Positions 5,175 to 8,488 of a stretch of 64,000 nucleotides of DNA are shown here, in pieces. Each line of letters starts with the position of its first letter. Position 1 is the stretch's first letter. Both the position numbers and the translations under genes were made by a program. The stretch is from assembly GCF_002007645.1 (NCBI RefSeq), contig NZ_CP019791.1:1860001-1924000 (forward strand). Direction: 5' to 3'. Source of the stretch: Anaerohalosphaera lusitana (GTDB lineage: Bacteria > Planctomycetota > Phycisphaerae > Sedimentisphaerales > Anaerohalosphaeraceae). The notes below the pieces were generated by a model. The model saw nothing but the letters and a program-made list of their open reading frames with translations. It did no database searches and was not told where the DNA came from.

Positions 5175-6062
5175 ATGCCGGTTTGGGTTTTGTTCAGTCT
5201 GGTTGCGATGGTGGGGAACGTTGCGAAGGTGCTGGTGGTCAAGCGGTTCTGTCAGGACGTGGACTCGCGGCTGGTGGTGCTTAGCGGGCGGGTTGTGTCG
5301 GCGGCGGTTTTGATGCCTGTGCTGGTGTGGCGGTTCGGGGGTGTGCCGACGGATGCGGGGTTCTGGGGGACGATAGCGGTGACGGCGGTGTTTACGGCGG
5401 TTGCGAGTGTGCTGTTGACGGAGGCGGTGAAGAAGGGGCCCTTGGCGGTGGTGATGCCTGTGCAGGCGGCGGTGCCGGTGTTCGCGATGGGGGCGCTGGT
5501 GGTGATATATCATGAGCTGCCCGGCTGGGATGCGGTGGTGCTGATCGGGGTGAGCATGGCGGCGATCGCGTATACGCTTTGGGCGAGTTATGCGGACAAG
5601 CGGGCGGCGGGTGATCGGCGGATGGTGTTCGCGGTGTATTCGGTGATCGCGGCGGGGATTTTTGGGGTGTGCACGATACTGGATCGGGTGGCGATCTCGC
5701 AGGTGGCGGACGGGGCGCTGGCGTATTCGGCCTGCTGGAACCTGGTTAGTGCGGGGATCATGGCGGGGGAGACGGTGCGTGCGAGGGTGCGTGTTCGCGG
5801 GATGGGACGTAAGAACGCGGCGGCGGTGGGGATGTATGCGGGTGCGGTGCTGGTTGCGTTTTATGCGCAGCAGTACGCGGTGCAGCGGTCGCTGGAGATT
5901 GCCGGGGCGGTGGTGAACGTCAAGAGCGTGGTGATGCTGCATCTGCCGGTGGTGATACTGGCGGGGGTGCTGTTTTTCGGTGAGCGGGTGAGCAGGCGGG
6001 TGCTGGTCGGCGGGCTGGTCGCGGTGGCGGCGGGGATTTGGCTGGTGCGGGTGATTGTGTGA
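5175..6062 (+). CDS. EamA/DMT-type inner membrane transporter
   Basis: About 295 residues, almost entirely hydrophobic, with roughly ten predicted membrane segments in two repeated halves, as expected for the drug/metabolite transporter (EamA) fold. Features include an early VKRFC segment, TEAVKKGPLAVVMPVQAAVP in the first half and FFGERVSRRVLVGG near the end, matching the family's usual FLGE(R/x)-type final repeat. I chose the ATG at 5175, with GGAG 11 bases upstream, over a TTG at 5151. The substrate cannot be told. The gene stops within about ten bases of a degraded Rhs remnant on the opposite strand, so its 3' flank has been rearranged. Confidence 0.8.
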   Translation: MPVWVLFSLVAMVGNVAKVLVVKRFCQDVDSRLVVLSGRVVSAAVLMPVLVWRFGGVPTDAGFWGTIAVTAVFTAVASVLLTEAVKKGPLAVVMPVQAAVPVFAMGALVVIYHELPGWDAVVLIGVSMAAIAYTLWASYADKRAAGDRRMVFAVYSVIAAGIFGVCTILDRVAISQVADGALAYSACWNLVSAGIMAGETVRARVRVRGMGRKNAAAVGMYAGAVLVAFYAQQYAVQRSLEIAGAVVNVKSVVMLHLPVVILAGVLFFGERVSRRVLVGGLVAVAAGIWLVRVIV

Positions 6063-6069
6063 GGGGTGC

Positions 6070-6280
6070 TTTTGTCGTCGAGTACCTGCCAGCGGTCGTT
6101 GTAGTAATAGCGGACGCCGGGCAGGGCTGAGCTGTCGTCGTACTTCTGCACATAGATGCGACGGCCAAGCGCATCGTAGGTGTATTCGACGACAGGCCAG
6201 CAGCCGATTCCGCCGTCGGACTTTTCGATGCTGACAAGCCGGTTTTCGTAGTCGTAGTGGTAGATATAAGCGTCCTCGTC
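6070..6280 (-). pseudogene. Rhs core remnant (YD-repeat fragment)
   Basis: Read on the minus strand from 6280, this translates to YD-repeat core: EDAYIYHYDYENRLVSIEKS, then EYTYDALGRRIYVQKYDD and RYYYNDRWQVLDDK, before running into the end of the transporter gene. It has no start codon, no upstream Rhs part and no C-terminal domain, so it is a fragment. It begins at the same GACGAGGACG sequence as the second remnant at 7002. Its last residues are the part that would normally precede the NQVFAKCDIYGNYIDE region that opens the surviving Rhs tip at 8488. Confidence 0.75.
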
Positions 6281-6363
6281 AATTACAGTTAGCCAAATCA
6301 GAAGTTTAGCCAGTACTCATGACCGTTCTAGGCCAAAGCATCTTAAATAGCTAATGAATATTT

Positions 6364-6579
6364 TTAAGCAAATAGATGCGCGAATCCTTTTTCAATGGCC
6401 CCATACCACACATAAATTGTGTATGCAACAAAGCCAATTAGAATGCCGACTTTACGAAAAATCTTTTGATGGCTTGAAAATAAGTTATCCAGCAGATGCC
6501 CTACCCAAAAGCCCGCACATGGGAATATGACCCACCCGCACCAGAAGAATAATACAATAGTGAATCGCAATAAACTCAT
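6364..6579 (-). CDS. Small two-helix membrane protein, putative Rhs immunity protein (copy 2)
   Basis: Seventy-one residues with two hydrophobic segments separated by a basic loop. It is clearly paralogous to the 77-residue protein at 7021-7254: both share WVxFPCxGFWxGHxLDNLF, then a basic stretch and IGFVAYxxYVWY. It starts 100 bases after the stop of a displaced Rhs toxin tail, just as the other copy follows the full toxin domain. A small gene immediately behind a polymorphic toxin C-terminus is the usual place for its immunity gene, so that role is inferred. The DNA is AT-rich compared with the flanking genes. Confidence 0.6.
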   Translation of the reverse strand: MSLLRFTIVLFFWCGWVIFPCAGFWVGHLLDNLFSSHQKIFRKVGILIGFVAYTIYVWYGAIEKGFAHLFA

Positions 6580-6679
6580 ATTAAAAGTCCTACCAGGGTA
6601 ATCAAGTTTTATTAATATATAGTCAACAGCACATACCCAATGTTGAACAAGCTCTCATGTTATCAATTAATATCTAGGT

Positions 6680-7002
6680 TTATGGATTTTCTTTACAACC
6701 GTTGCCATTGTTAATAGGTCGTTTGTTGATGTACTCTTTAAAACAACCTCCGCCACTACTTGGCCATTTGCCAGAGTCACCATCTAATAACATGGCCCAG
6801 TATGCAGGCCACTTGTCGTGTTTTTTGTGCCCACCACTGTGTGAGCACCTCATAGCGTCGTGTGCATCTGCACTTAGATGCGACGGCCAGGCGCATCGTA
6901 GGTGTATTCGACGACGGGCCAGTAGCCGGTGCCGCCGTTGGACTTTTCGATGCTGACAAGCCGGTTTTCGTAGTCGTAGTGGTAGATGTAAGCGTCCTCG
7001 TC
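6680..7002 (-). pseudogene. Rhs core fragment joined to a displaced toxin tail
   Basis: Two pieces, read on the minus strand. From 7002 to about 6867 is a YD-repeat fragment (EDAYIYHYDYENRLVSIEKS ... EYTYDAPGRRI) ending in a stop. From 6872 to 6680, in another frame, is a 193-base copy of the last part of the toxin domain at 7322-7514, beginning ADAHDAMRCSHSGGHKKHDK and ending NNGNGCKENP. It differs from the intact tail at 8 of 63 residues and has no indels. The junction lies in the six bases TGCAGA, which occur both in the core (6145-6150) and in the toxin (7509-7514). Confidence 0.75.
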
Positions 7003-7020
7003 TTCGTTAAAAGGAGTTGT

Positions 7021-7254
7021 TTACGGAAATAGATGCGAGAAGCCCATTTTGATAATTGAATACCATACATAACTTGCGTATGCAACAAAGCCAATTACAA
7101 TGCCGATTGAACGAAAAAGTTTTCTGCGGCTTGTAAATAAGTTGTCCAGTCGATGCCCCAACCAAAATCCTATACATGGGAAGACAACCCATCCGTACCA
7201 TAAGAATAATATTAAAGTATATTGTAATAAAAATTTCAAAATTAAAACCTCCAC
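7021..7254 (-). CDS. Small two-helix membrane protein, putative Rhs immunity protein (copy 1)
   Basis: Seventy-seven residues. An N-terminal hydrophobic segment (LLQYTLILFLWYGWVVFPCI), a short basic stretch (SRRKLFRS) and a second hydrophobic segment (IGIVIGFVAYASYVWYSII) suggest an integral inner-membrane protein. The gene starts 67 bases after the stop of the intact Rhs C-terminal domain and is AT-rich. A close paralogue lies at 6364-6579 behind the displaced copy of the same toxin tail. Immunity function is an inference from position and co-duplication. I do not recognise the family. Confidence 0.65.
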   Translation of the reverse strand: MEVLILKFLLQYTLILFLWYGWVVFPCIGFWLGHRLDNLFTSRRKLFRSIGIVIGFVAYASYVWYSIIKMGFSHLFP

Positions 7255-7321: not shown

Positions 7322-8488
7322 TTATGGATTTTGTTCACAGCCGTTGCCATTATTAATAGGCCGTTTACTGATATAATCTTTAAAACAACCTCCATCGCTG
7401 CTCGGCCATTTACCAGAGTCACCATCTAACAACATGGCCCAGTCTGCAGGCCACTTGTCGTGTTTTTTGTGCCCACCACTGTGTGAGCACCTCGTAGCGT
7501 TGTGTGCATCTGCAGTGCCTGCGCCCGTTCCGTGGGTGATGAGGTCACCATTATGATCATAAGTGCACTGCTGAGACGGACAGCCTTTCGAACGCATATC
7601 CCAATTTGCTCCGGGATGATATTTACCTAGATAAGCTATATAGTAAAGTTGCTCGATTACCGTCCAGCCTTCGGGTGGAACAGGATATTGTTGTCCTGCT
7701 CCAAAGCCGCCTGGGATTGTACATATCTTTAATTCGCATGGACATGGAAGATCGTTAAGTTCTTCAAAATCAGGATGGGGGCCATCAAGCCAATCTTTAA
7801 ACTTGTTATACGCCTCTGAACATTTATCCCAGCAATCCAGATATTCTCCTCCATCTGAAGTACATGTCTCCATGCATGGCATACGTGAACAAACAGTCTC
7901 ATTACTCCCAGAAGAGCCGCCTGGGAATGCCACATGAACCAGTCCCGAAGGATCAACAGAAATAACAGGCCATGATTTTACATACTGGTAAACATTATTG
8001 CTGTCTTTGTATTGTGATCTGGGGTTGAAGTAGCGAGTGGAATTAGCAGCCGGATCCATCCCCCACGGATCCTGCTGTAAAAAGCGGCCCATTTGCGGGT
8101 CGTAGTAGCGGTGGCGGTAGTACATAAGTTCCAAGTTGCCGTTGTCGAGGGTGTCCAGTCTTCGGCCTGTGAAGGTGTAGGCGTTGCCGACGGAGCTGGA
8201 TCGTGCTTTTGTGTCGTCCGTGGTGAGCCAGTTGCCGTCTGCGCCCTTGTCGGTGTAGAAGGTTGTGCGGCCGTAGGCGTTGTACTCGCAGCGTTCGGCT
8301 ATCTCGGCTGTGGCCTTGTTGACGATCGCGACGGGGCTGTAGAGGTGGTCGTGCAGGTAGAAGTTCATGCTGCCTGTCGCTCCGGAGTAGCTGTAGATGA
8401 CCTCGTCGATGTAGTTGCCGTAGATGTCACATTTTGCGAAAACCTGATTTTTGTCTGTGCGGTAAGTCATTGCGGAAATATTGTACAT
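7322..8488 (-). CDS. Truncated Rhs protein: C-terminal core tip plus unknown toxin-like domain
   Basis: Residues 10-182 are the end of an Rhs core: IYGNYIDEV, CEYNAYGRTTFY, the hallmark MYYRHRYYDPQMGRFLQQDP, and a terminal DPSGL with Asp179. Residues 183-388 are a different, Cys-rich domain (about 18 Cys) with CTYDHNGDLITHGTGAGTAD and a His/Lys-rich HSGGHKKHDKW. Base composition becomes more AT-rich at the boundary. In Rhs systems the core is constant and the C-terminus is a swappable effector, so the latter is a candidate toxin of unknown activity. The core lacks its N-terminal shell and there is no secretion signal, so the gene is an orphan tip. Start at 8488 or 8470. Confidence 0.8.
   Translation of the reverse strand: MYNISAMTYRTDKNQVFAKCDIYGNYIDEVIYSYSGATGSMNFYLHDHLYSPVAIVNKATAEIAERCEYNAYGRTTFYTDKGADGNWLTTDDTKARSSSVGNAYTFTGRRLDTLDNGNLELMYYRHRYYDPQMGRFLQQDPWGMDPAANSTRYFNPRSQYKDSNNVYQYVKSWPVISVDPSGLVHVAFPGGSSGSNETVCSRMPCMETCTSDGGEYLDCWDKCSEAYNKFKDWLDGPHPDFEELNDLPCPCELKICTIPGGFGAGQQYPVPPEGWTVIEQLYYIAYLGKYHPGANWDMRSKGCPSQQCTYDHNGDLITHGTGAGTADAHNATRCSHSGGHKKHDKWPADWAMLLDGDSGKWPSSDGGCFKDYISKRPINNGNGCEQNP

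Follow-up and report, generated by a model that had tools for sequence, protein, structure and literature searches.

A divergent AMOP domain in the apparent exchangeable C-terminal slot of an orphan Rhs cassette from Anaerohalosphaera lusitana

What is the domain that follows the core of a short Rhs gene in Anaerohalosphaera lusitana, and what might it do there? The gene lies in a 64,000-nucleotide stretch of genomic DNA (the window), where the ORF list gives a 388-aa open reading frame at positions 7322-8488 of the minus strand. Residues 94-183 of this frame match the Rhs-associated core model TIGR03696 (Rhs_assc_core) with 51.5 bits (cut-off 32.5), and the short, truncated core (7943-8488, minus strand) ends in the motif DPSGL, behind which stand 206 further residues (7322-7942, minus strand). 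The gene has neither a signal peptide nor a long YD-repeat delivery part upstream; it is a short core alone, unlike a full-length Rhs carrier equipped for secretion, and may therefore be silent as it stands; its layout suggests that it can be an orphan cassette rather than a complete Rhs toxin.

A preliminary description of this DNA had presented the tail as a candidate toxin of no known family, with about 18 cysteines and a base composition that turns AT-rich exactly at its boundary with the core. A tail of about 206 residues with the motifs quoted there does follow DPSGL in the 388-aa frame, but the cysteines number 13. The compositional shift is also real (GC falls from 0.53 in the core to 0.47 in the tail, and third-position GC from 0.70 to 0.38), but it sets in about 27 codons upstream of DPSGL (the 78-nt bin at 7946-8023 has a GC content of 0.37) and not at the boundary itself.

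Searched alone as a single sequence against Pfam (up to E 5), NCBIfam and PHROGs, the tail gave no match. Elsewhere in the genome, at 652.4 kb, another Rhs tail is 55% identical to the window tail over 40 residues and scores 52.9 bits against the Pfam AMOP model, for which the cut-off is 25. We compared the window tail with a bacterial AMOP family drawn from planctomycete genomes, GTDB contigs (searched with a three-row alignment), a Gloeothece plasmid and phage-like contigs, from which two weak AMOP matches (L011, and G518 on L045) were excluded; of the 13 members scanned, 12 match PF03782. A profile built from all 13 (A3) aligns with the window tail at an hhalign probability of 98.9% (P 2.2e-17), and when compared with the PDB it picks up human isthmin-1 (E 2.1e-20). 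The tail was also modelled with AlphaFold2 (pLDDT 70, pTM 0.68, with low pLDDT in CT residues 1-14, CT denoting tail numbering). In a Foldseek search of the PDB the model matched the TSR-AMOP structure of human ISM1 (9c6t) at E 2.9e-5, with no other match below 0.001; superposed on the AMOP domain of 9c6t it gives Z 8.8 and an rmsd of 3.2 over 131 residues. A fold search of viral models with the tail gave nothing under E 1. Because profile match, fold match and a paralogue in its own genome agree, we regard the tail as a divergent AMOP domain (PF03782) and not as a new fold. By profile comparison and predicted fold, this domain is the last ~150 residues of the tail (CT residues 57-206 plus the stop codon, 7322-7774, minus strand); the linker and N-terminal Cys-rich part before it (CT residues 1-56, 7775-7942, minus strand) lie outside the sequence profile match. 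The tail thus has a known family after all, and the match is in part to the kind of non-toxin domain that would speak against a toxin, since AMOP is known from extracellular proteins of animals.

Bacterial AMOP domains and those of isthmin-1/2, MUC4, SUSD2 and Mesh have in common the motifs CPC, RS, Q-x-C-x-Y, GxGT, HxxxD and Y...RPxN and a C-terminal Cys. Set against the eight-Cys AMOP pattern (PMC9818725), the window tail keeps CPC, the first Cys of QQC and the C-terminal Cys; the second Cys of its CCY motif is replaced by Thr, the Cys before R117 is absent, and a long insert follows the CPC motif. A tree of 19 AMOP domains had support too poor to place isthmin or to test the Rhs-linked forms as one clade.

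Seven residues (H109, R117, Q125, D145, H158, D162 and Y190 in CT numbering) are invariant in 14 of 14 bacterial and phage AMOP domains in the conservation table; on the minus strand of the window the codons of five of them are at 7616-7618 (H109), 7508-7510 (D145), 7469-7471 (H158), 7457-7459 (D162) and 7373-7375 (Y190). Human ISM1 retains R117, H158, D162 and Y190 but has K, H and N at positions 109, 125 and 145, so that the bacterial domain differs from that of isthmin both in standing on an Rhs core and in having H109, Q125 and D145. The invariant set could be an active or metal site that was partly lost in isthmin, or it could be a mixture of structural and functional residues. One explanation makes an enzyme of bacterial AMOP, either a hydrolase or a metal-dependent protein acting on lipid, peptidoglycan or glycan, whose predicted active site would comprise H109, R117, D145, H158, D162 and Y190 and would be partly lost in animal isthmin. 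The full conservation of the seven residues in bacteria and phages together with the ISM1 differences at 109, 125 and 145 favors this idea, as does the presence of phospholipase-like tails in the same Rhs slot elsewhere in the genome (below); the fold, on the other hand, matches no enzyme, and the retention of H158, D162, R117 and Y190 in ISM1 means that some or all of the set may have a structural role. On balance we consider an enzyme a tentative proposal, somewhat doubtful as it stands.

Is the AMOP domain found behind Rhs cores elsewhere? Besides the window and the 652-kb locus of the same genome, an Rhs core followed by an AMOP tail is present in further Planctomycetota (L038, L010, L043 and L005), and also in Puniceicoccaceae (L030; Verrucomicrobiota) and Lentisphaerota (L031). 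The tail of L031 has an in-frame stop shortly upstream of its RPP motif, and that of G024 (L005/L054) is interrupted by a frame change; both sequences were left as they are. The domain thus recurs behind Rhs cores in at least three phyla, as the preliminary description had proposed looking for, and the absence of any link to polymorphic toxin cores elsewhere, which it had named as a ground for abandoning a toxin, is not what is found. AMOP domains also occur apart from Rhs, in large secreted proteins of Phycisphaerae (L032, L033), another planctomycete (L055) and Gloeothece (L039), and in small secreted proteins or lipoproteins of Bacteroidia, Saprospiraceae and a cyanobacterium; at five loci (L033, L034, L036, L049 and L051) AMOP has neither Rhs nor an obvious partner gene.

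These forms bear on a second explanation, that bacterial AMOP is, as in animals, a non-toxic binding or adhesion domain, which on Rhs and other secreted proteins would attach to a ligand on a surface or to a partner cell, and that the membrane protein encoded downstream of it (below) is its anchor, receptor or recognition partner. The standalone secreted and lipoprotein AMOPs of Bacteroidia, Saprospiraceae and cyanobacteria and the secreted multidomain ones of Phycisphaerae are in keeping with such a role, and so is the literature on animals, in which a review assigns AMOP to adhesion outside the cell; the roles given there, adhesion or signalling, amount to extracellular binding (PMC9818725). 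The animal roles, and the AMOP genes that have no Rhs or partner, likewise count against an effector. A pure binding domain is harder to reconcile with a position exactly after DPxGL, in a slot that holds phospholipase-like effectors in this genome, with the duplication of the orphan cassette along with its partner gene, and with seven invariant residues, among which His, Asp and Arg account for five, which is more than a disulphide scaffold seems to need; we judge it unlikely, though it deserves to be kept in mind.

The slot itself can be described from the rest of the genome, which has 18 Rhs-core matches, mostly short cores with different tails, most of which have a gene close behind them. 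In nucleotide sequence the window core shares 67-77% identity with parts of several of these other short cores, and the window tail, like theirs, is a variable C-terminal domain placed directly after DPxGL. Two of the other tails resemble lipid-degrading enzymes: one (region G000:C1:1647131, L016) scores over the cut-off for a Tle1-like phospholipase, the other (region G000:C1:291776, L027) is phospholipase A2-like but below cut-off, and each has an exported or membrane protein gene downstream. Because the shared short cores carry such phospholipase-like tails, AMOP occupies a slot that elsewhere in this genome holds effector-like domains. The 652-kb AMOP tail belongs to a tandem pair of short Rhs cassettes with unrelated tails and with partner genes (G000:C1:646500-656500, L056), an array that adjoins clpB-like and alkaline-phosphatase-like genes. 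The sole long Rhs ORF seen in the genome is a 2595-aa open frame (region G000:C1:1639977, L015), and blastn showed no similarity between its core and the short one in the window; the two may therefore not recombine.

Downstream of the AMOP tail the window holds an array of related pieces, all on the minus strand. A 77-aa ORF (7021-7254) begins with a GTG start 67 nt past the rhs stop codon and encodes a small protein with two predicted TM segments (ORF list and TM count), a candidate immunity protein. It is followed by the Rhs YD-repeat/core fragment of a second module (6862-7015), recognized by repeat comparison at 6862-7002 and by three-frame translation and out of frame with the AMOP tail after it; by a truncated second copy of that tail (6680-6877, its last ~63 residues), 86% identical to the first in amino acid sequence and, over the repeat at 6679-6872, 90% in nucleotide sequence; by a 71-aa paralogue of the candidate immunity protein (6364-6579), 63% identical to the 77-aa protein, the underlying repeat (6363-6574 versus 7020-7231) being 76% identical in nucleotide sequence; and, at the end of the array, by a further Rhs YD-repeat fragment (6060-6300), seen in the repeat at 6140-6280 and in three-frame translation. 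The second copies of the tail and the small ORF and the extra Rhs-core fragments had not been noticed in the preliminary description. Judged from this arrangement, the context has the layout of an orphan Rhs-CT/immunity module array.

The duplicated copies allow selection to be estimated. Between the two copies of the tail end in the window dN/dS is 0.17, and between the 77-aa ORF and its 71-aa paralogue it is 0.39. Both genes of the module are coding and under purifying selection, the tail being more constrained than its partner, and the small gene 67 nt downstream of the tail is accordingly a real coding gene. A core that has lost its delivery part and a second module that is truncated and out of frame could be taken to mean that the whole locus has decayed and that its broken rhs gene and fragments no longer serve any function. 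The two dN/dS values, the intact first module and the fact that short-core cassettes are the common form in this genome make a remnant quite improbable.

The 77-aa protein matches no Pfam family, and no relatives of it beyond the two window copies were found in 248 genomes of the class. What kind of partner do other AMOP genes have? Where an AMOP gene has a close neighbour downstream (13 loci), that neighbour always encodes a membrane or exported protein: eight of these partners are polytopic, those of L030 and L031 are lipoproteins, and the rest are single-anchor or signal-bearing. Polytopic partners are more frequent here than beside the other Rhs tails of this genome (8 of 13 versus 1 of 11, Fisher p 0.013), a comparison that sets many genomes against one and uses hand classification and TM counts from a simple hydropathy rule. 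A membrane location by itself is not peculiar to AMOP, because most other Rhs tails here have exported partners too. The AMOP partner proteins are mostly unrelated to one another, and this point and the lack of relatives of the 77-aa protein elsewhere can be held against an effector; mutual unrelatedness of partner families is, however, usual for immunity proteins. The lipoprotein partners of L030 and L031 are homologous (108 of 192 residues identical), the AMOP parts of these loci being more alike. Two Phycisphaerae species (L032, L042) have AMOP genes with a common membrane partner that carries a zinc-ribbon motif, CxxCGYDL...RCPECG. Colicin-like pore formation, which polytopic partners might suggest, was given little weight since the tail has no long hydrophobic hairpin.

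With even confidence for and against, we propose that the tail is a disulphide-rich, exchangeable, envelope-acting Rhs effector domain with a membrane-bound immunity partner. The 388-aa gene would be an orphan rhs-CT cassette: its short core would provide homology for recombination, and behind the core come the AMOP tail and the gene for a membrane protein. The tail would become joined to a full-length secreted Rhs protein or similar carrier and be released outside the cytoplasm, where it would act on the envelope of the target cell; and a membrane-anchored partner, most likely the 77-aa protein as immunity protein, would neutralise it. What is observed in favor of such an effector is AMOP homology, the position at DPSGL, gene order, a constrained duplication, recurrence behind Rhs cores and membrane or exported partners; what we infer is that the tail is toxic and its partner protective, where the tail acts, that it recombines into a carrier, and that the invariant His/Asp/Arg residues might be catalytic. 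The earlier suggestion of a swappable C-terminal effector gains support from the DPxGL position, the many different tails, the small membrane gene and the duplicated orphan module. The three main proposals overlap, an enzyme being a sharper version of the envelope effector, and their likelihoods are not to be summed.

The arrangement resembles the orphan rhs-CT/rhsI and cdiA-CT/cdiI modules, with the same truncated core with DPxGL, variable tail, small downstream gene and tandem fragments, and in CDI and Rhs systems orphan CT/immunity modules so arranged work as toxin/immunity pairs (PMC3150448). Unlike those modules, the window array combines a Cys-rich AMOP tail with a membrane partner and has no full-length Rhs gene beside it, and its toxicity and immunity are putative. 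A polymorphic-toxin survey (PMC3482391) describes immunity proteins with two TM helices, as well as secreted or transmembrane ones matched to surface-acting toxins; among them Imm17 is, like the 77-aa protein, a small two-TM protein beside a CT gene, but the 77-aa protein has no Pfam match. In the first 300,000 characters of that survey no mention of AMOP was found, and a full-text literature search for AMOP with Rhs, polymorphic toxins or Planctomycetes gave no relevant paper. As far as these sequences can be read, a domain so far described in secreted and surface proteins of animals such as isthmin and MUC4 is here bacterial and in an exchangeable Rhs effector slot.

MUC4, isthmin and SUSD2 are animal proteins studied in medicine, and the molecular activity of the AMOP domain that they carry is poorly understood. 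Its bacterial form, an exchangeable Rhs tail with partner genes, offers a simple microbial system for testing that activity, in which the invariant set gives specific residues for mutation. It also prompts one to ask if a further signalling domain of animals, after the reported case of the teneurins, has its origin in bacterial conflict systems. Tox-GHH of the teneurins is a different domain that is likewise common to bacterial Rhs C-termini and animal extracellular signalling proteins, and its animal form is inactive, according to the same survey (PMC3482391). It is conceivable, but rather unlikely in our estimation, that AMOP arose as (or still is) a bacterial-conflict envelope effector with a conserved, polar active site, from which the AMOP domains of isthmin, MUC4 and related animal proteins were derived with partial loss of that site, a parallel to teneurins and Tox-GHH.

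AMOP also occurs on mobile DNA. One query of INPHARED phage records returned no AMOP, and no description of a phage AMOP was found in the literature searched, but two phage-like IMG/VR contigs (L049:3743-4414, G600, and L051:3698-4393, G599) each encode an AMOP protein of ~200 aa with no Rhs part; both proteins score above the Pfam cut-off, keep all of the invariant residues and have an N-terminal extension that looks helical. A search of plasmids found AMOP in Gloeothece only, where the conjugative plasmid pP742402 of Gloeothece citriformis (L039:2627-5077) encodes a 615-aa secreted protein with a C-terminal AMOP domain, followed by the gene for a 168-aa polytopic membrane protein.
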